Of a stretch of 33,165 nucleotides of DNA, positions 15,351 to 29,642 are shown in pieces. The translations under genes and the position numbers were made by a program. Under the pieces are notes generated by a model. It searched no databases. It was given only the letters and a program-made list of their open reading frames with translations, and was not told the DNA's origin. Source of the DNA: Desulfobacteraceae bacterium (GTDB taxonomy: Bacteria > Desulfobacterota > Desulfobacteria > Desulfobacterales > RPRI01); assembly GCA_003818505.1 (NCBI GenBank), contig RPRI01000046.1, positions 1 through 33,165 of the forward strand, read 5' to 3'. Every line of letters begins with the position of its first letter. Positions within the stretch are counted from its first letter, which is position 1.

Positions 15351-15441
15351 ATAATCTGTAATTGCCGATTTGAGGTATAGCCCGGGATAGGATGTTACTA
15401 AGAAAGTTTCAAAACTTCTGTTTGTGTTTCGGAGGAATTGT

Positions 15442-16305
15442 ATGCGCCTTAAGAGCAAACTGGAAAAAGGAGAATTTGCGGTTCTGGTCGAACTGGAGCC
15501 TCCAAAAGGTGTAGATGTTTCTTTGATGTTGGCGAACGCAAAAAAAGTTAAAGGGAAGGTCGATGCTTTTGTTGTGCCTGAAATGAGCAATGCCGTGATG
15601 CGCATGAGCTCTCTTGGCGGCGCATTAATATTGAACGGCAATGGTTTGGAAACGGTTTTTCAGGTAAACTGCAGGGACCGTAACAGGATTGCATTGCAGG
15701 CGGACCTTCTTTCTGCCGGAGCAGTAGGCATTAATAATGTCATGGCTGTAAAAGGTGAAGATCCGCGTTTTGGCGATCATCATGAAACAAAGTCGGTTAA
15801 TGATCTCGATTTGCTTGAGCTTATTCGCACAGTCAATATTTTAAATAACGGGAAAGACATGGCAGGAATTGAACTTGCGGGTGCTCCACGGTTTATTGTA
15901 GGTTCCACCGTTAATGCAGGAGCCGGCGGACAGGCACTGATGCTTGAACTGGATGAAATGAAAAAAAAGCTTGATGCAGGAACAGGTTTTTTTATAACCC
16001 AGCCTGTATTTGATGTATCCGGTATACGCCCTTTTCTGGAAAGGGTTGACCGTTCAAAAATCAGAATAATTCCAACCGTTCTTTTGCTCAAATCGGTTGG
16101 AATGGTAAAATATATAGAACGCCATATGGACAATATCAAGATTCCGGGTGCAACAATAGACCGGATTCAGAATGCCCCGGACAGGGTGCGCGAGTGCATA
16201 AAAATTGCTTCAGAAAACGTTTCAATGCTTAAAAAAGAAGGATTCAGCGGAGCTTTCATTTCGACTCTCGGATGGGAGAATAAACTCCCTGAAATCTTGG
16301 AATAA
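15442..16305 (+). CDS. Methylenetetrahydrofolate reductase-like protein (MetF paralogue)
   Basis: A 287-residue TIM-barrel protein related to MetF. ATG 15442 is chosen because GGAGG (15431-15435) sits six bases upstream; a GTG at 15424 would precede that site. Seen: VLVELEPPKGVD near the N-terminus (the catalytic Glu region), FQVNCRDRNRIALQADLLSA and VMAVKGEDPRFGDH in the FAD and folate site, GTGFFITQPVFD, and ILLLK-like PTVLLLKSVGMVKYI. It is about 28% or so similar by eye to the MetF at 28710, sharing the CRDRNRIA/TRDRNRIA and QPVFD/QCIYN positions. It lacks a MetV partner at this place, so its electron donor is unclear. It may reduce methylene-H4folate or be a non-canonical relative. Confidence 0.75.
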   Translation: MRLKSKLEKGEFAVLVELEPPKGVDVSLMLANAKKVKGKVDAFVVPEMSNAVMRMSSLGGALILNGNGLETVFQVNCRDRNRIALQADLLSAGAVGINNVMAVKGEDPRFGDHHETKSVNDLDLLELIRTVNILNNGKDMAGIELAGAPRFIVGSTVNAGAGGQALMLELDEMKKKLDAGTGFFITQPVFDVSGIRPFLERVDRSKIRIIPTVLLLKSVGMVKYIERHMDNIKIPGATIDRIQNAPDRVRECIKIASENVSMLKKEGFSGAFISTLGWENKLPEILE

Positions 16306-16741: not shown

Positions 16742-16829
16742 TTTCTATCCTGTACAGGAAATAAACAAAAGAGGATAGGTTAAGATTCATATAAAGCATA
16801 AGATAATGAGAATTGAAAGGAGTAACAAA

Positions 16830-17825
16830 ATGGCAAATCATAATCAGGAAGAGCGGAGAAGCAGGTTTGGGTATGGATCAACCTACAGGAAAGGAGATGC
16901 AAAAGAAGAGGGCCGAAGTGAGATTAAAACTGTTCTGGGCGGGCAGGTATGGATGGTGAAACCCGATAAGAGTGCCTGTGCTTCCAATCCCTGTATATGG
17001 ATGCAGGCCGGCCTTGTCGGTTTTAAGGATTGTAATAACTTTTATGATTGCACCACCTGCAGGTTTGATCTGGGCATGAGCAAAAAGGTTGAAAAAGGAA
17101 ATCAGATAAGCTGGCAGGATGCCATGAGAAAGAGACAGGATATGAACAGAATCTGTCGGCACAGTCTTACGGGACGTATTGAAAAAAGATCATGCGCATA
17201 TGATTATCAATGCTCGAAGTGTGATTTCGACCAGTTTTTTGAAGATGTCTGGACGACAAAAAACAAGACTGTTCCGGATGAGGTTCAGCATGTCAAAGGT
17301 TTTGATGTCCCTGTCGGGTACTATTTTCATGACGGCCATACCTGGGCGAGAATAGAAAGCGGTGGCTATATCAGAATCGGGCTTGATGATTTTTCCCTCA
17401 AACTTTTAGGGAAAGCCGATGCCCTTGATCTTCCGCTCATGGGTAAGGAGCTTGACCAGGGGATTTCCGGCTGGGGGTTAAAGCGCAGAGAGAACATGGC
17501 TGATGTACTTTCTCCGGTTAATGGGGTTATTGTAGAGGTCAATTCGCAGGTAAGGGGAAAGCCGGAGCTTGCCAACCTGGAACCTTACGGGGACGGATGG
17601 CTGTTTATGGTGCGTTCACCCGATATAAAGGAAACGGTAAAGAAACTGATGGATGATAGTGCAAGTCCTGGCTGGATGAGCGATGAAGTTGTCAAACTGG
17701 AGAAGATGGTCGAAGAGGTTGCAGGCCCCCTTGCGGCGGATGGCGGATATTTCAATGAGGATATTTACGGAAACCTCCCCGGTCTTGACTGGAAAAATCT
17801 TGTAAGGACATTTCTTAAAACATAG
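16830..17825 (+). CDS. GcvH-like protein with tandem Cys4 modules (copy 1)
   Basis: A 331-residue cytoplasmic protein. Start 16830 is set by GAAAGGAG at 16815-16822; an in-frame ATG at 16806 lies before that site. Residues 55-80 and 109-134 each hold C-x12-C-x5-C-x2-C-x-F-D (Cys 55/68/74/77 and 109/122/128/131), an internal duplication likely to bind metal or an Fe-S cluster. A glycine-cleavage-H-like fold follows from about 148: GYYFHDGHTWARIE, then RIGLDDFSLKLLG and VLSPVNGVIVEVN. In true H proteins a lysine in ESVKA carries lipoate. The aligned stretch here is KRRENMADVLSPV, with Glu in that place, so lipoylation is unlikely. It is driven by a sigma-54 promoter and followed by a paralogue. 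No glycine-cleavage genes are nearby; function unknown. Confidence 0.75.
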   Translation: MANHNQEERRSRFGYGSTYRKGDAKEEGRSEIKTVLGGQVWMVKPDKSACASNPCIWMQAGLVGFKDCNNFYDCTTCRFDLGMSKKVEKGNQISWQDAMRKRQDMNRICRHSLTGRIEKRSCAYDYQCSKCDFDQFFEDVWTTKNKTVPDEVQHVKGFDVPVGYYFHDGHTWARIESGGYIRIGLDDFSLKLLGKADALDLPLMGKELDQGISGWGLKRRENMADVLSPVNGVIVEVNSQVRGKPELANLEPYGDGWLFMVRSPDIKETVKKLMDDSASPGWMSDEVVKLEKMVEEVAGPLAADGGYFNEDIYGNLPGLDWKNLVRTFLKT

Positions 17826-18014: not shown

Positions 18015-18950
18015 ATGGAATTAGTCGGATTAAATACTGATATAAAAACAGGCCGCAGCCCCTGTCTCTGGATGCAGGCAGGGGTTGTCCGTTCAAAATA
18101 TTGCAGTAGTTTCTACGACTGCACATCATGCCGCTTTGACAGGGCCATGATGCGTGCGGTCGACGAAAACAAAACTGCTTCCGGAAACGGCATCTTATGC
18201 GGAAAAAGGCGCAAATATATTGCCCACTGGATTGATAAGCTTAAAGAGATACCTTCATCAAAAAGGCCATGCATCCATCATATGAAAGGCCGCATTGCTT
18301 TTAAAAATTGCAGCAATGATTACAGGTGTGCCAACTGCGAGTTTGACCAGTATTTTTATGATCAGTATTCCGTTCATGCCCTGGTAAACCCAGTGGATCT
18401 TCTTACTGTCGACGGATTCAAGATTCCGCAGGGCTATTATATTCATAGGGGACATGCCTGGATAAAGATTGAAGAAGGATCGTCGGTAAGACTCGGGCTC
18501 GATGATTTTGCTTTGCGGCTGCTCGGCCCCCTTGACAGTGTTGAAGCACCGCTTACCGGAAAACGGATGAATCAAAGCGATTCCCGGATATTTATCAGGC
18601 GCGGCGGGAAAAGGGCGAATATTCTTTCGCCTGTGAGCGGAGTTGTAACGGATGTGAATACTCGTCTCAGAGAAGAAGGAAGTCTTGCAAACAAAAATCC
18701 ATATACCGACGGCTGGTTTGTAAGGCTCCATTCCGAAAACCTGAGAAATGAGCTTAAAGATCTTTATATAGGTTCCGAAACAAGAGATTTCATTGAAAAA
18801 GAGGTCAGGCTTCTTTATAAAGTTATTGAGGAATCGGGAGGACTAATAAACACCGATGGCGGCTATCTTGGCGACGATATTTACGGAAAAATGCCACTGA
18901 TAGGCTGGGAAATGTTAACAGGGCTTTTCCTCAGAACCGTGTTTTTTTAA
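18015..18950 (+). CDS. GcvH-like protein with tandem Cys4 modules (copy 2)
   Basis: A 311-residue paralogue of the preceding gene, 189 bases downstream, with GAGGTG just before ATG 18015. The two Cys modules have exactly the same spacing: Cys 17/30/36/39 and 86/99/105/108, each C-x12-C-x5-C-x2-C-x-F-D. The GcvH-like part has GYYIHRGHAWIKIEEGSSVR, LGLDDFALRLLGPLDSVEAP and ILSPVSGVVTDVN. The stretch aligned to the lipoyl site is RRGGKRANILSPV, with Gly at the lysine position, so it too is probably not lipoylated. It may be read from the sigma-54 promoter through copy 1, as no separate promoter is evident. Its 3' end overlaps the convergent archaemetzincin by 36 bases. Function unknown. Confidence 0.75.
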   Translation: MELVGLNTDIKTGRSPCLWMQAGVVRSKYCSSFYDCTSCRFDRAMMRAVDENKTASGNGILCGKRRKYIAHWIDKLKEIPSSKRPCIHHMKGRIAFKNCSNDYRCANCEFDQYFYDQYSVHALVNPVDLLTVDGFKIPQGYYIHRGHAWIKIEEGSSVRLGLDDFALRLLGPLDSVEAPLTGKRMNQSDSRIFIRRGGKRANILSPVSGVVTDVNTRLREEGSLANKNPYTDGWFVRLHSENLRNELKDLYIGSETRDFIEKEVRLLYKVIEESGGLINTDGGYLGDDIYGKMPLIGWEMLTGLFLRTVFF

Positions 18951-22886: not shown

Positions 22887-22915
22887 TTGACTGGAGGCAG
22901 GCTATCTATTATATC
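22887..22915 (+). promoter_or_regulatory. Sigma-70 promoter of the hdrA-mvhD-metVF cluster
   Basis: TTGACT at 22887-22892 and TATATC at 22910-22915 are spaced 17 bases apart, leaving a leader of about 95 bases before ATG 23016. No sigma-54 box was found here. Confidence 0.55.
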
Positions 22916-23015
22916 TTGATAATGAAATAAATGTTATTCATTAAATGTATTTTATACGAAATATAAATATAAAATTGAAACTGCTGGCAACTCACAAAGA
23001 AATAAGGAGCATCGC

Positions 23016-26000
23016 ATGACTGGGAAAGTTGTTGGATCTGTTATGGTAGTCGGCGGAGGAATTGCCGGAATGCAGTCTGCCCTTGATCTTGCCAATTCAG
23101 GATATTATGTATATTTGCTTGATAAAACAGCTGCAATCGGAGGTCTTATGTCGCAGCTTGACAAGACCTTCCCTACGAATGACTGTGCTATGTGAGTTAT
23201 CTCTCCAAAACTGGTCGAGGTCGGCCGGCATCTGAATATTGAACTGTTGATGAATTCCGAACTTCTTGAACTGGAAGGAGGGCCCGGTAATTTTACTGCA
23301 ACAGTCAGGCAGAATCCAAGGTATGTAGACCTGTCAAAGTGCACCAGCTGCGGGGAATGCGCTAAAGTTTGCCCTGTTACGCTTTCGAATGAATACGACG
23401 AAAATCTCTCTGTAACAAAAGCCGTATACAAGAAATATGCGCAGGCTATTCCCGGAGCTTATGCAATCCGGAAAACCGATAAAGCCCCGTGCAGTCTGGC
23501 ATGTCCGGCAGGTCTTAATGTTCAGGGTTATGTACAGATGGCAGGCCAGGGGAAGTATAAAGAAGCCCTGCAGATAATAATGGAGGAACTCCCTCTGCCG
23601 GGTGTTCTGGGAAGAATATGTCCTCACGGATGTGAAGACGCGTGTCGCAGATGTGAGGTTGACCAGCCGGTGGCGATACGCAACCTAAAACGCCTTGCGG
23701 CAGATAAGTTTGATCCCAGAAATATTGAAATTAAAACCCTACCAAAGCGACAGGAAAAAGTTGCAATCATAGGATCGGGACCTGCCGGCCTTTCAGCAGC
23801 ATATCATCTTGCGAGAAAAGGCGTTCTTTCTACCATATTCGAAGCTCTTCCAAAAGCGGGAGGAATGCTCAGGGTCGGCATTCCGGAACACAGGCTCCCA
23901 AGAGATGTTCTTGACAGGGAAATAGAAGTAATAACAAATCTTGGCGTAGAGATTAAAACAAATACTCCTCTTGGTCCGGATTTAAAAATAGATGATCTTT
24001 TCAGGCAGGGTTACAAATCGGTATACATAGCAATAGGTGCGCATAAAGGTTTTGAGATAGGTGTGCCAGGAGAAAAGGCCGCGGGTGTCCGCCAAGGTGT
24101 TGATTTCCTGAGAGAAGTTAACCTCACAGGGAAAGCCGATGTAGGGAAAAAAGTGGCCATTATAGGGGGCGGTAATGTGGCCATAGATGTTGCCCGCTGT
24201 GCGGTCAGACTTGGAGCTGCTAAGGTAAGTATAATATACAGGAGAACCCGTGGTGAAATGCCTGCATGGGAAGAGGAAATTCATGCCGCTGAAATTGAAG
24301 GCACTGAAATAACGTATCTCTCGGCTCCACAGGAAATTCTGACGGCAGACGGGAAGGTCGTCGGTTTGAGATGCATAAGAATGGAACTCGGTGAGCCGGA
24401 TTCATCCGGGAGAAGAAGACCCGTCCCTGTTCCAGGCAGCGAATATGATATCGAAACGGACCAGATCATACCAGCCATCGGCCAGAGGCCGGATTTGACT
24501 GTAATGGAGAATGTTACAGGAATCGGATTTACACGCTGGGGTACCGTTGAAACCGATTCCGTGACATATTCAACAGGCCGGGAAGGTGTTTTTGCAGGTG
24601 GTGATGTACAGACCGGACCCTGGGTTGCGATCGGCGCAATAGCAGCAGGAAGAGAGGCTGCTGAATCCATCCTGAGATATCTTGACGGCAAAGACATGGC
24701 AGAAGGCCGTGAGCCGGTGACAAATGAAAACCCTCTTTACAGACCGATACCGGATGATGAGGTAAAAAGAGCAAGAGCGGTAATGACTGAGCTCCCTGCT
24801 AAGGAACGGGAGGGTAATTTCAAGGAGGTTGAACTTGGATTTACCGATGAGGAAGGAAAGGCCGAGGCCGGAAGATGCCTCAATTGCGGTTATTGCTGCG
24901 AGTGTTTCCAGTGCGTAGATGCCTGTCTTGCCGGGGCTGTTGACCATAGCCAGAAAGTTGTTGAAAAGCAGGTTGAGGTCGGTTCCGTAATTCTATGCCC
25001 GGGAACCGAAATATTCGACCCTTCAATTCTTGATGAATTTTATCATTACAAGACAAATCCGAATATTTTAACAAGCCTCGAGTTTGAAAGAATATTGAGT
25101 GCCTCCGGTCCTACAATGGGGCATCTTGTAAGACCCTCTGATAAAAAAGAGCCCGAAAAGATTGCGTGGTTACAATGCATAGGTTCAAGAGACAACAACA
25201 GGTGCGGTAACGGTTACTGCTCGTCGGTATGCTGCATGTATGCTGTCAAAGAGGCGATGATCGCAAAAGAGCATGCACACGGCGATCTTGACTGCGCAAT
25301 ATTTAATATGGATATGCGGACCTTTGGAAAGGATTATGAGAAATATTACAACAGGGCGAAGGATAAGGATGGGGTTCGCTTCATTAAGGCGCGTGTCCAT
25401 ACCATGGAAGAGATCAAAGAAAGCGGCAACCTTCTTATAAGGTTTGCTGACGAATCCGGCGAAATACGGAAAGAAGAGTTCGACATGGTTGTGCTCTCCG
25501 TCGGGCTCAAGGTTCCGCAATCCACGGTGGATATGGCAAAGCGCCTCGGCATCGATCTGGATAAATACAGTTTTGCGGCAAGCAGGCCTTTTACGCCGAT
25601 TGAAACATCAAGGCAGGGGGTATATGCCTGCGGAATTTTCCAGGGGCCTAAGGATATCCCAAGCTCTGTAATTGAGGCAAGCGCTGCGGCCTGTGCTGCC
25701 GGAGGCATTCTTAATGAAGCAAGGGGCACACTGACAAAGACCGTAAAGGTGCCGGATGAAATCGATGTGGCAGGGCAGGAGCCGAGAATCGGGGTATTTG
25801 TGTGCAACTGCGGTATAAATATTGCCGGGGTAGTGAATGTTAAAGGCATTTGCGAATATGCTTCAGGCCTTCCATATGTTGTTTTTACCGGGGATAACCT
25901 CTTTACCTGTTCGCAGGATTCACAGGACAGAATAAAAGATATTATTATAGAGAAGAATCTTAACAGGGTAGTTGTGGCGGCATGTACACCCAAAACCCAT

Positions 26001-27449
26001 GAGGGAATTTTCATGGATACTCTTGAGGCATGCGGCCTTAATAAATATCTTTTTGAGATGGCAAACATCCGCAACCAGGATTCCTGGACACATTCCAGTG
26101 ATCCTCTGGGCGCAACTGAAAAAGCAAAAGACCTGGTTAAAATGGCGGTTGCAAGAGCCGCGACCCTAAACCCGCTACATGAAAAGAAGATACCGGTCAA
26201 TAAGAGGGCTCTTGTAATCGGAGGCGGTGTGGCGGGCATGAACGCTGCCCTTGGTCTCGCAGACCAGGGTTTTGAAACTGTCCTTGTCGAAAAAGAACCT
26301 CAGCTTGGAGGCATGGCTACCCGGTTGACGGAGACCATCGAGGGTGAAAAAATAGGCCCTTATCTTTCCGGACTGATAAAAAAAGTATCCGGCCATTCTA
26401 AAATACAGGTGTTGACACAGTCTCTGATAGTCGGTTTCTCCGGATTCAAGGGGAATTTCACAACGGAGATAATCGTAGGCCCCGGCATGTATGAGAGAAA
26501 AATAGATCATGGTGTTGTAATCCTTGCAACCGGAGCCAACGAATATACTCCATCCGAATATTTATACGGGCAGGATTCAAGAGTAATGACACAGGTTGAG
26601 CTGGCGCAGAAACTCGGAAAGGGCGGCGCTTCCGGACTCGAAAGCGTGGTCATGATCCAGTGCATAGGATCCAGGAATGAGGAGAATCCCAACTGCTCAA
26701 GGGTATGCTGCCAGAGTGCAATCAAGAATGCGATTCATATAAAGGAACTTAATCCCGACGCTAATATTTATATCCTTTACAGGGATATCAGGATGTACGG
26801 ACTTCTTGAAGATTATTATACTGAAGCCAGGCGAAAAGGCATATTCTTCTTCCGCTACACAACTGACGATATGCCTGTGGCCGAATCAAACGATTATGGA
26901 CTCATGGTAACTTTCAGGGATCATGTTCTGGGACGGCGCTTAAAAGTTACTGCTGATAGTCTTATTCTCAGCGCCGGGATGAGGCCAACAGATACGACTG
27001 AGCTTTCTTCCATTGTCAAACTGGCGCTGAATGCTGAAGGTTATTTCATGGAGGCGCATGTAAAGCTGAGACCAGTCGATATGGCAACGGAAGGAATTTT
27101 TGTCTGCGGAACGGCCCACAGTCCGAAACTCATGACAGAAGCAATTCCACAGGCTCTTGCCGCGGTTTCGCGCGCAACAACATTTCTTTCGCAGGATTAC
27201 CTGACCCTTTCAGCAGTTACCGCACGCGTGGAAGCGGAAAAGTGCGCGTCCTGCCTTATATGCGTGAGATCGTGTCCTTATGGAGTTCCGCGGATCAATG
27301 AAGATGGGGTGAGCGAGATAGATATCGCCCTTTGTCATGGATGCGGAGTTTGCGCCGCAGAATGTCCTGCAAAGGCTATTGAACTGGACTGGTATGAGGA
27401 TGATCAGATACTCAGCAAGGTTGAAGCCTTGCTGGAGGGGGTTATATGA
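23016..27449 (+). CDS. hdrA: Selenocysteine-containing HdrA with inserted GltD-like module
   Basis: 1477 residues when the in-frame TGA at 23193-23195 is read as selenocysteine (residue 60). AAGGAG sits six bases before ATG 23016. Order: FAD Rossmann GGGIAG (13-18); NDCAM[15 protein letters not shown]; ferredoxin cysteines 109/112/115/119. A glutamate-synthase-beta/NfnB-like module follows, with FAD site [10 protein letters not shown] (about 250), NADPH site [12 protein letters not shown] (about 380) and [12 protein letters not shown] Cys cluster lies at about 620, and [13 protein letters not shown] closes HdrA unit one. A second HdrA unit runs from about 925 ([10 protein letters not shown]) with GGGVAGMN (about 1066) and two C-terminal [4Fe-4S] motifs (about 1409-1450). 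HdrA is the flavin-based bifurcating subunit; the insert suggests direct NAD(P)H use. It overlaps mvhD by ATGA. Confidence 0.9.
23193..23228 (+). promoter_or_regulatory. Selenocysteine UGA and SECIS hairpin of hdrA
   Basis: The UGA (23193-23195) is followed after 15 bases by CTGGTC (23211-23216), loop GAGGTC, and GGCCGG (23223-23228). The six pairs include two G-U. The loop contains GGUC, as in the E. coli fdhF SECIS loop AGGUCU recognised by SelB. Coding similarity to HdrA continues without break on both sides of the UGA. Confidence 0.8.
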
Positions 27450-27880
27450 ACCGGGATTTTGAGCCTGTAATCATTGCTTTCTGCTGCAATTACTGAGGCT
27501 ATACTGCTGCGGACCTGGCAGGTTCCATGCGATTGAGCTATCCGACAAACATCAAAATCATAAGGGTTCCATGCACCGGCAAAGTGGACATAATCCATAT
27601 CCTGCGGGCGTTTGAAAAAGGTGCCGACGGAGTATACGCGGTTGGTTGCATGGAGGGAGAATGTCATTATAACAGCGGAAACTTAAGGGCAAAAAAGAGA
27701 ATTGAGCAGGCGAAAAAAATACTTGATACAATAGGAATAGGGGGGGAAAGAGTTCAGATGAGAAACCTCTCTTCAGCCGAAGGGCCCAGGTTTGCCCAGT
27801 ATGCATCTGAAATGGATGAACTGATAAGGAAGCTTGGCCCCAACCCGATAAAAGTGGCTGCTAAAAAGAAGGCGGCATAA
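27446..27880 (+). CDS. mvhD: MvhD-type iron-sulfur protein with selenocysteine
   Basis: 144 residues, starting at ATG 27446 inside the hdrA stop (ATGA overlap), with GGAGGGG upstream. TGA 27494-27496 is codon 17 in AFCCNY-Sec-GYTAADLAGS, where other MvhD proteins carry cysteine. The rest is typical: IKIIRVPCTGKVDIIHILRA, FEKGADGVYAVGCMEGECHY and GNLRAKKRIEQAK. MvhD binds a [2Fe-2S] cluster and passes electrons between a dehydrogenase or hydrogenase and HdrA. No MvhA/G hydrogenase subunits are present, so it probably links HdrA with MetV/MetF or a soluble partner. A caller treating TGA as stop would start at 27527 and lose the first 27 residues, including the redox motif. Confidence 0.9.
27494..27526 (+). 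promoter_or_regulatory. Selenocysteine UGA and SECIS hairpin of mvhD
   Basis: UGA 27494-27496 is followed after 14 bases by GGACCT (27511-27516), a GGC loop and AGGTTCC (27520-27526). All six pairs are Watson-Crick, with one bulged U on the 3' side. A guanine begins the loop, as required in bacterial SECIS models. The loop lacks the GGUC seen after the hdrA UGA, so SelB contact is less certain. Confidence 0.7.
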
Positions 27881-28044
27881 TTGATGTTCCGGGGTTCGAG
27901 GATTCAAGGGTTCAAGTATTCGAGTGAAAGGAAGTTTGGAACCGGCGTTCGTTACGGGAAATTATTTGAGAGAAAAAAATATAAGGCTGGCATTGATTAA
28001 ATTGGTAAGTCTGAATATTTGAAAAGAAAGAGAGGTCGCGATAT

Positions 28045-28713
28045 ATGATTGTAGCCGATAAAAAGCCGATAGAGGAGATAGTCAGCGAGATCGAGAGTTA
28101 TAACAGGATTCTGATACTGGGCTGCAACGAATGCGTTACAGTATGCGAAGCCGGCGGTAAAAAAGAAGTAGCAATTCTGGCTTCTGCTCTCAGGATGTAT
28201 TTTTTAAATCAGGGAAAAGAGATGAAGATAGACGAGGTTACTCTCGAACGGCAGTGCGATCACGAATACCTCGAAGAGATACGTGACAGGGTAGATAAAT
28301 ATGATGCCGTTGTTTCCCTGGCATGCGGGGTGGGAGTTCAGTTCGTAGCTGAAAAATACCATACCCTGCCGGTATATCCCGGCGTCAACACCTGTTTTCT
28401 TGGTGTTACAGAAAAGCGCGGATTGTGGACGGAAAGATGCCAGGCCTGCGGTAAATGTATTCTTGCAAAAACCGCTGGAATATGTCCTGTTTCAAGATGC
28501 GCAAAGAGGCTTTTGAACGGCCCGTGCGGAGGGTCAACGAAAGGTAAGTGTGAGATAAGCAAGGATGTCGATTGCGCCTGGCAGCTTATTGTTGACCGGT
28601 TGAAAGCTCTCGGCAAAATCGATGATTATGAAATAATTATACCATTGAAAGACTGGTCTACCGACAGGGCGGGCGGACCCCGAAAAGTTGCAAGGGAGGA
28701 TGTGCAGTTATGA
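28045..28713 (+). CDS. metV: MetV, zinc/Fe-S partner of methylene-H4folate reductase
   Basis: A 222-residue protein of the MetV family (methylenetetrahydrofolate reductase C-terminal domain type). The N-terminal half has ILILGCNECVTVCEAGGKKE with Cys27, 30 and 34. The C-terminal half is cysteine-rich: WTERCQACGKCILAKTAGIC, then SRCAKRLLNGPCGGSTKGKC and DVDCAW. The CQACGKC and GPCGG motifs are characteristic. In acetogens MetV binds a [4Fe-4S] cluster and hands electrons to MetF. AGAGG precedes ATG 28045. Its stop overlaps the metF start by ATGA, implying translational coupling. It lies 164 bases after mvhD with no terminator between, so the four genes probably form one operon. Confidence 0.88.
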   Translation: MIVADKKPIEEIVSEIESYNRILILGCNECVTVCEAGGKKEVAILASALRMYFLNQGKEMKIDEVTLERQCDHEYLEEIRDRVDKYDAVVSLACGVGVQFVAEKYHTLPVYPGVNTCFLGVTEKRGLWTERCQACGKCILAKTAGICPVSRCAKRLLNGPCGGSTKGKCEISKDVDCAWQLIVDRLKALGKIDDYEIIIPLKDWSTDRAGGPRKVAREDVQL

Positions 28714-29642
28714 ATTGCAAAACACCGAGTAAGCTGGAGAAAATTCTTGCTGCAGGTCATATTGCAGTTACTTCGGAATGTGGTCCCCCGCGTGGCAGCA
28801 ATATTGAGCATATTGTGCATAAAGCCGGCCTTATTAAAGATCATGTCGATGCCATCAATATAACGGATAACCAGACATCCGTTACAAGGCTTTGCAGCCT
28901 TGCTGCATGCATAAAATTAAAGCTGATGGGGCTTGAACCTGTTCTTCAGATGGTAACGCGCGACAGGAACAGGATTGCCATACAGAGCGACATACTGGGA
29001 GCCGCCGCATTCGATATTTTCAACATGCTCTGCCTTTCCGGAGATCACCAGAGCTTCGGGGATTGCGCCCAGGGTCAGAATGTCCATGATCTTGATTCGA
29101 TGCAGCTTTTACAGACAGTGCGGCATATGCGCGATGAGGGGAAATTCTTAGGAGGGGCGGACATAGACAGTCCGCCGAAAATGTTTGTCGGAGCAGCTGC
29201 AAACCCTTTTGCCGACCCTTTTGAAATAAGAGTTCCGCGCCTTGCAAAGAAGGTTGCTGCAGGCGCCGAATTTATCCAGACCCAATGCATTTATAATCTT
29301 GACAAGTTTGAGCTTTGGATGAAAATGGCACGTGACAGAGGTTTGCATGAGAAGGTCTATATTCTTGCCGGAGTCACTCCTTTGAAATCTGCCGGCATGG
29401 CAAAGTATATGAAAAACAGGGTCCCGGGGATGGATGTTCCGGATGATGTTGTTAAGAGGATGGCTGCAGCTTCAAAGGAGAAACAGCCAGAAGAAGGAAT
29501 AAAAATCTGTATTGAGTCGATCCAGCGCTTAAAGGAGGTTGAAGGAGTCAGGGGGTTTCATATAATGGCTATTGAATGGGAGGAAAAGGTTCCTGAAATA
29601 GTTGAAAATACCGGCCTATACCCCCGGCCGAAAGTTGATTGA
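28710..29642 (+). CDS. metF: Methylenetetrahydrofolate reductase, MetV-dependent type
   Basis: A 310-residue TIM-barrel flavoprotein that reduces methylene- to methyl-tetrahydrofolate, the last carbon-reduction step of the methyl branch of the Wood-Ljungdahl pathway. In oxidative metabolism it runs in reverse. Seen: VTSECGPPRGSNIEH (catalytic Glu region), LQMVTRDRNRIAIQSDILGA at the flavin, MLCLSGDHQSFGD, and AEFIQTQCIYNLDKFELW. It starts at ATG 28710 inside the metV stop. The gene order hdrA-mvhD-metV-metF parallels the MetFV-HdrABC-MvhD cluster of some acetogens, with HdrBC absent here. A MetF paralogue without MetV is at 15442. Confidence 0.9.
   Translation: MNCKTPSKLEKILAAGHIAVTSECGPPRGSNIEHIVHKAGLIKDHVDAINITDNQTSVTRLCSLAACIKLKLMGLEPVLQMVTRDRNRIAIQSDILGAAAFDIFNMLCLSGDHQSFGDCAQGQNVHDLDSMQLLQTVRHMRDEGKFLGGADIDSPPKMFVGAAANPFADPFEIRVPRLAKKVAAGAEFIQTQCIYNLDKFELWMKMARDRGLHEKVYILAGVTPLKSAGMAKYMKNRVPGMDVPDDVVKRMAAASKEKQPEEGIKICIESIQRLKEVEGVRGFHIMAIEWEEKVPEIVENTGLYPRPKVD

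Follow-up and report, generated by a model that had tools for sequence, protein, structure and literature searches.

A 33,165-nucleotide stretch of DNA, contig RPRI01000046.1 of assembly GCA_003818505.1 (hereafter the window), holds two adjoining genes, hdrL and mvhD, each with an in-frame UGA followed by a hairpin resembling a selenocysteine insertion sequence (SECIS). Judged from comparison with relatives, they are very probably neighboring selenoprotein genes of a bacterium that decodes UGA as selenocysteine (Sec). The host is probably a member of Desulfobacterota, as suggested by named records that share the 18-base hairpin sequence (18-mer) of hdrL. The features on which the argument rests are as follows.

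23004..23009, plus strand: Shine-Dalgarno sequence AAGGAG, six nucleotides 5' of the ATG at 23016
23016..27449, plus strand: hdrL-type hdrA gene, 1477 amino acids with internal Sec60 (from domain profiles and reading frame)
23193..23195, plus strand: Sec-UGA of hdrL, codon 60, in the context NDCAM-U-VISPK (from frame, relatives and structure alignment)
23211..23228, plus strand: SECIS hairpin of hdrL, CTGGTCG-AGGT-CGGCCGG, the nearly invariant 18-mer (from folds and comparison of loci)
27446..27880, plus strand: mvhD/frhD gene of the FlpD family, the second selenoprotein gene (from profiles and in-frame TGA)
27447..27449, plus strand: TGA taken as the true stop of hdrL, within the ATGA that also contains the mvhD start
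27494..27496, plus strand: Sec-UGA of mvhD, in the context CCNY-U-GYTAADLAG (from frame and relatives)
27511..27525, plus strand: SECIS-like hairpin of mvhD, GGACCT-GGC-AGGTTC (from fold and relatives)

Two adjoining genes with in-frame UGA codons

The hdrL frame is interrupted by a single TGA before it closes with a TGA of its own. Pfam and NCBIfam profiles place an N-terminal HdrA flavin adenine dinucleotide (FAD) domain first, followed by a DPYD/GltD-type NAD(P)H module (approximately residues 144 to 560), the continuation of HdrA, a second HdrA-like half and a C-terminal ferredoxin domain. The predicted product is thus of the HdrL type, a fusion of HdrA with a glutamate-synthase part, rather than the plain HdrA named in a first-pass annotation of this DNA; the assignment rests on the HdrA domains, the GltD-type module and the mvhD gene that follows, and not on alignment to any named HdrL sequence. 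That annotation had foreseen that an ordinary open reading frame (ORF) call would start at 23247 and drop the FAD-binding N-terminus, and the mechanical ORF does begin at TTG 23247, with loss of the first FAD-binding motif.

The UGA of hdrL occupies the second Cys position of the NDCxxC motif in the HdrA FAD domain and would give the protein a CxxU motif. Residue 60 aligns without gaps to Cys197 of HdrA in PDB entry 5odc chain A (E 7.4e-44), which bears out the earlier claim that codon 60 is an in-frame UGA at a site where other HdrA proteins have Cys. When the window was compared with 29 relatives that also have UGA at codon 60, the 55 codons 5' of it differed at a mean of 0.72 of synonymous sites (pS) and 0.078 of nonsynonymous sites (pN). 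The low pN relative to pS argues that these codons are translated and under purifying selection, which is seen on both sides of the UGA. The genome contains 18 matches to the HdrA N-terminus, five of them with TGA; the rest include several weak or second-half matches.

The second in-frame UGA, in the adjoining mvhD, had been overlooked in the first-pass annotation. The MvhD product scores 170.9 bits against FlpD (cut-off 22.3) and carries the N-terminal CxxU motif of a Sec-containing MvhD/FrhD protein in the form CCNYU. Its hairpin has G at the first loop position and a loop 20 bases 3' of the UGA, and its thermodynamic z-score is not significant. TGA followed by GCGGACCTGGCAGGT occurs in 16 of the 20 hdrL-linked regions of relatives, and these are all 16 of the TGA sites there. 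A search of 173 loci gave 81 distinct places at which the mvhD site could be read (46 TGA, 29 TGC, 4 TGT and 2 other). GCGGACCTGGCAGGT is common to 29 of the 46 TGA places, and the codons of the Cys copies vary there; the remaining TGA copies carry a second version, GCTGGAGTT. Eight MvhD matches were found in this genome, five with TGA.

Structure and conservation of the hdrL hairpin

The hdrL hairpin begins 15 bases 3' of the UGA and comprises a 5' arm (23211-23217), the loop AGGT (23218-23221) and a 3' arm (23222-23228) joined by seven base pairs. The spacing of 15 bases and the pairing proposed earlier were upheld; the stem, drawn then with six pairs, extends to seven, and the loop is AGGT. 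This loop resembles that of the fdhF SECIS. In a published model, a bacterial SECIS has a small apical loop with G at position 1 or 2 and frequently G or U next, and the loop lies 16-37 nucleotides after the UGA (PMC13188914). The hdrL hairpin fits this model, with G at loop position 2, then G, in a loop beginning 22 nucleotides 3' of the UGA, and differs from the general consensus in being nearly invariant in sequence within HdrA. With up to three mismatches allowed, the 18-mer was observed once in the window, against 0.01 expected after shuffling.

Conservation was assessed from matches listed in 59 genomes, where choice by best score favors close relatives. The 54 Sec loci comprised the 30 best matches (window included), 20 of the listed TGA matches and four loci of this genome. 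For the Cys group (21 loci), 20 of the 35 stop-free matches listed were taken, together with one locus of this genome. Two further loci of this genome, L057 and L058, were dropped with their motif unmatched, and its weaker matches were left unused. Counting from the UGA, the hairpin codons +6 to +11 (CTG GTC GAG GTC GGC CGG) each use one codon throughout the 54 Sec loci, except that +9 does so in 53, the other encoding Phe. The same six positions use two to five codons in the Cys loci, and none of 37 flanking degenerate codons is monomorphic in the Sec loci. For hdrL and for mvhD alike, a constraint at the nucleotide level is linked to UGA and relaxed in the Cys homologues. Just outside the stem, at codon +5 (23208-23210 in the window), Lys is encoded in 47 Sec loci, 46 of which use AAA.

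Folding of the two groups gave a similar division. All seven pairs are possible in 54 of 54 Sec loci, and Cys loci can form three to seven, with two of the 21 reaching seven; when the 33 nucleotides from +15 were folded, all seven pairs were present in 54 of 54 Sec loci and in one of 21 Cys loci.

A second sample of 395 genomes was drawn evenly from the phylum and is free of best-score bias, although its patterns require NDCxM and miss other forms. NDCxM-TGA occurred at 251 sites in 120 of these genomes, and at 211 of the sites, in 103 genomes, the 18-mer followed at the fixed distance without mismatch. NDCxM followed by TGC or TGT occurred in 182 of the 395, and the 18-mer accompanied it in none. 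In named genomes, a pattern of TG, two C and the 18-mer that left the third codon base free matched at least 116 loci with at least 119 sites, and TGA stood at all 119 listed. The record titles for 80 of the listed loci mostly name Deltaproteobacteria or Desulfobacterales; Bacillota/Firmicutes, Peptococcaceae, Dethiobacter and SAR324 account for a few. The HdrA 18-mer with TGA also occurs on a contig (L140) assigned to a Bathyarchaeota genome, possibly through a binning error.

The hairpin lies within the codons of the peptide LVEVGR, so that protein and RNA constraints together would lock its 18 bases. Enumeration with folding energies gave 4608 encodings of this peptide, 64 of which keep the seven pairs. 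The observed encoding and one other tie at the lowest energy; position 9, in the loop, is the sole difference between them (G or A), and all 54 Sec loci have G. Peptide and stem would leave essentially one best encoding, with the remaining choice decided by the loop G of the published SECIS model, presumably through contact with SelB.

Forty NDCxM-TGA sites were without the exact 18-mer, and 18 of these, from the matches listed, were examined. Sixteen of the 18 can form all seven pairs, yet only two prefer the window's hairpin on refolding; the idea that these variants keep that hairpin through one-sided changes was rejected, and the result counts against the SECIS reading. Two LVEVDRH loci keep the hairpin, one LVEVGRN locus folds otherwise, and 15 LVECGRH loci (L318-L332) prefer a shifted hairpin with the loop GGTCG, 27 bases 3' of the UGA (-11.2 to -13.2 kcal/mol, vs. 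+0.2 to -4.4 kcal/mol for the window's hairpin). All 15 have the identical core GAGTGC-GGTCG-GCACTT; the pair just outside it is C-G in eight, T-A in six and G/G (broken) in one. These outer-pair changes are synonymous on both sides, and both pair types occur within one family. The 15 loci derive from matches listed in 12 genomes, in four families, and are in several cases near-identical, so that the independent changes are few. If the pattern holds, one gene would have two SECIS designs, chosen by a single amino acid (+9 Val vs. Cys).

On this comparison, the HdrA SECIS is probably a sequence-locked, double-coding element in which the fold would fix five codons and recognition by SelB the sixth. 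One 18-mer, common to Desulfobacterota and to records labelled Bacillota and SAR324, would then mark Sec HdrA with very few exceptions, and Cys at +9 would lead to a second locked design.

Probable selenocysteine decoding and competing readings

The genome (4.43 Mb, 98.2% complete, 5.7% contaminated) was searched with profiles for the machinery of Sec insertion. Matches to selA (615 bits, cut-off 268) and selB (388 bits, cut-off 242) were found, together with one tRNA-Sec (76 bits, cut-off 47) with the anticodon TCA. Of the four genes whose presence the first-pass annotation had made a check on its claim, selA, selB and selC (the tRNA-Sec) are therefore in the genome, and selD was not found above cut-off.

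It is proposed that the hairpin at 23211-23228 would bind SelB carrying Sec-tRNA(Sec), that Sec60 would be inserted at UGA 23193 where other HdrA proteins have Cys, and that the full 1477-residue flavoprotein would result; mvhD would be decoded likewise by its own hairpin. Gene anatomy, Sec codons, conserved hairpins, selA, selB and selC, and gene order were established by comparison, and from these we infer Sec insertion in this strain. We regard the reading of UGA 23193 as Sec, and with it the status of hdrL as a selenoprotein gene, as highly likely, and the hdrL hairpin is very probably a working SECIS.

Three other explanations were weighed. UGA 23193 might truly terminate translation, mark a lesion in a pseudogene or be a sequencing error, with translation restarting at TTG 23247, where the mechanical ORF begins. 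This is very improbable: the Shine-Dalgarno sequence 5' of ATG 23016 speaks against such a restart, selection has acted on both sides of the UGA, and independent assemblies contradict a lesion or error, since UGA stands at this codon at every one of the pattern sites counted above in other assemblies, including those of the isolates Desulfoluna spongiiphila and Desulfospira joergensenii, and likewise in 53 further Sec-type loci. The frame would also stay open if UGA were reassigned throughout the genome or read as another amino acid without a SECIS, whichever residue it encoded. That explanation is hardly credible, and was rejected, because hdrL, metV and metF themselves end in TGA, the 18-mer accompanies TGA and not TGC or TGT with one exception (L089, below), and tRNA-Sec, SelA and SelB are present.

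The fixed 18-mer, in turn, could reflect recent common ancestry or gene transfer instead of a SECIS, and transfer of the hdrA operon between archaea and Deltaproteobacteria has been proposed. Here too the chance is slight, and the explanation was rejected. Most synonymous sites around the 18-mer differ (mean pS 0.72 upstream and 0.83 downstream of the hairpin), the degenerate codons that flank it are not fixed, and it is missing in 20 of the 21 Cys loci and at all Cys-type sites of the 395 genomes.

Several results weigh against Sec decoding at the two genes and against a SECIS role for the hairpin. The four selD matches in this genome are weak, the best reaching 52.7 of the 125 bits needed. 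selD was above cut-off in 19 of the 21 genomes searched (this one included), the exceptions being this genome and one other (G015), and all 21 near-full-length selD matches, from 18 genomes, themselves hold one TGA; the absence here is taken as a gap in the draft. With 5.7% contamination, a different organism might conceivably be the source of the machinery. MvhD reaches 182.7 of the 215 bits required by the NCBIfam VhuD model, and the NCBIfam HdrA models match the hdrL product over several stretches below their full-length cut-offs, as is expected because the protein is a fusion. The energy of the hairpin is unremarkable (z -1.19 over 48 nucleotides, -0.26 over 61). An Rfam scan of 22900-28200 at E<=10 gave three matches, all far under the gathering score and none to a SECIS family; an Rfam match is not a defining feature of the bacterial SECIS consensus. 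In the 48-nucleotide fold from the UGA, the seven-pair hairpin is best in only 43 of 54 Sec loci (and in none of the 21 Cys loci); ten (L040, L041, L042, L044, L045, L046, L051, L100, L107 and L112) favor, by 1.4 to 4.1 kcal/mol, a different fold that pairs through the UGA, and five pairs are left in one. The near-invariance of the 18-mer itself prevents its covariation from being measured. Finally, one of the 21 Cys loci, L089 (G004:C123:40753-41248), a TGC homologue of HdrA outside the 395-genome and named-genome samples, retains the exact 18-mer. It is likely the product of a recent change from Sec to Cys with a fossil SECIS, and remnant SECIS elements in Cys homologues are already on record from a 2006 survey (PMC1794560). 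What sets the hairpin above chance is the comparative evidence, and not its energy.

Operon context and relation to known systems

Two genes for methylene-tetrahydrofolate (methylene-THF) reductase proteins follow mvhD.

28045..28713, plus strand: metV-like gene, methylene-THF reductase C-terminal family PF12225 (from profile)
28710..29642, plus strand: metF, methylene-THF reductase family (from profile), with a 4-base overlap with metV

In relatives, mvhD and metV lie 3' of hdrL in 17 of 20 downstream regions; two of the remaining regions end inside hdrL, and one has neither gene in the 2.7 kb left. metF was found in 14 of the 20 (one partial), and some metV matches are cut by the end of a contig or stretch. 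Desulfospira joergensenii and Desulfoluna spongiiphila, which carry Sec HdrA with the 18-mer, were considered as carriers of the same operon and rejected: no GltD module, metV or metF was matched in 8 kb of each, and Desulfospira has a Cys-type mvhD. Elsewhere in the window, a second methylene-THF reductase-type gene lies at 15424-16305, approximately 12 kb from metF, and 16806-17825 and 18015-18950 encode two neighboring proteins that each combine a Cys-rich N-terminal part with a GcvH-like domain.

Sec HdrA/HdrL and Sec MvhD/FrhD have been described before, and the detail that appears new is the tight fixation of the SECIS sequence. The 2006 survey lists Sec HdrA and FrhD in Deltaproteobacteria, with seven and eight copies in Syntrophobacter fumaroxidans, and includes hdrA_N-unknown-hdrA_C forms and clustered genes (PMC1794560). 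Syntrophobacter fumaroxidans and other bacteria therein resemble the present genome in having both selenoproteins, in several copies per genome and clustered; unlike here, their operons are of the hydrogenase type (hdrA-frhD-frhG-frhA, with glpC) (PMC1794560). The first-pass annotation had attributed Sec at this HdrA site to some methanogens, which stands only in part, as the literature also documents it in Deltaproteobacteria and Firmicutes.

In 2009, Sec HdrL (HdrL1/HdrL3) and Sec MvhD were reported together in the genome of Desulfobacterium autotrophicum HRM2 (PMC2702500). As in the window, a Sec-containing HdrA/glutamate-synthase fusion occurs there with mvhD after each hdrL, and four of its MvhD proteins contain Sec; HdrL1-mvhD is followed by dsrABC in that genome and by metV-metF here, the likeness being drawn from description and not from an HdrL alignment (PMC2702500). 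In 2016, Desulfococcus multivorans was reported to have Sec forms of both HdrA and MvhD (PMC5109826). HdrABC-MvhD-MetVF is known from Moorella (PMC5736913), and in syntrophic sulfate reducers HdrA subunits occur next to Wood-Ljungdahl genes (PMC10553843). HdrA, MvhD, MetV and MetF are encoded together in Moorella as they are here (PMC5736913); in the window, however, HdrA is the long HdrL fusion. The locked HdrA SECIS and its shifted version with one covarying pair were not found in the literature searched, with no dedicated search made for the shifted version.

In the complex that these genes may encode, MvhD would link a partner to the HdrA flavin by electron transfer. Given that HdrL brings an NAD(P)H module and MetVF a methylene-THF site, the role considered most likely is that of a methylene-THF reductase that bifurcates or confurcates electrons; we lean toward flavin-based bifurcation or confurcation that would couple methylene-THF/methyl-THF to NAD(P)H and ferredoxin, and we infer complex formation, the reaction and its direction from the gene content. 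One result detracts from this proposal: no HdrB/HdrC-type domain was found in a scan of 18 proteins of the window, no search for HdrB or HdrC having been made elsewhere in the genome, and any complex would therefore differ from that of Moorella. A less likely possibility is that the Sec HdrL-MvhD pair serves another donor or acceptor, such as formate dehydrogenase, a hydrogenase or DsrC, instead of MetVF. Desulfobacterium autotrophicum has HdrL/HdrA-MvhD pairs beside other partners, and metV is only 49-50% identical in two of the 17 relatives that have it (L121 and L134), lying 1.4 kb beyond mvhD in L134. The metV and metF genes, however, stand directly 3' in this operon, and the order of mvhD and metV after hdrL recurs in most of the relatives' regions.

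These findings add two more genes to those cut short by a plain ORF search, and provide a simple DNA signature, with very few exceptions, for the Sec-UGA in HdrA. The hdrL hairpin would be a clean natural case of a recoding signal and a protein-coding sequence on the same bases, useful for testing how SelB reads the SECIS loop. For the physiology of the organism, selenium would be placed in a flavin subunit and in its electron entry protein, beside the genes for methylene-THF reductase.
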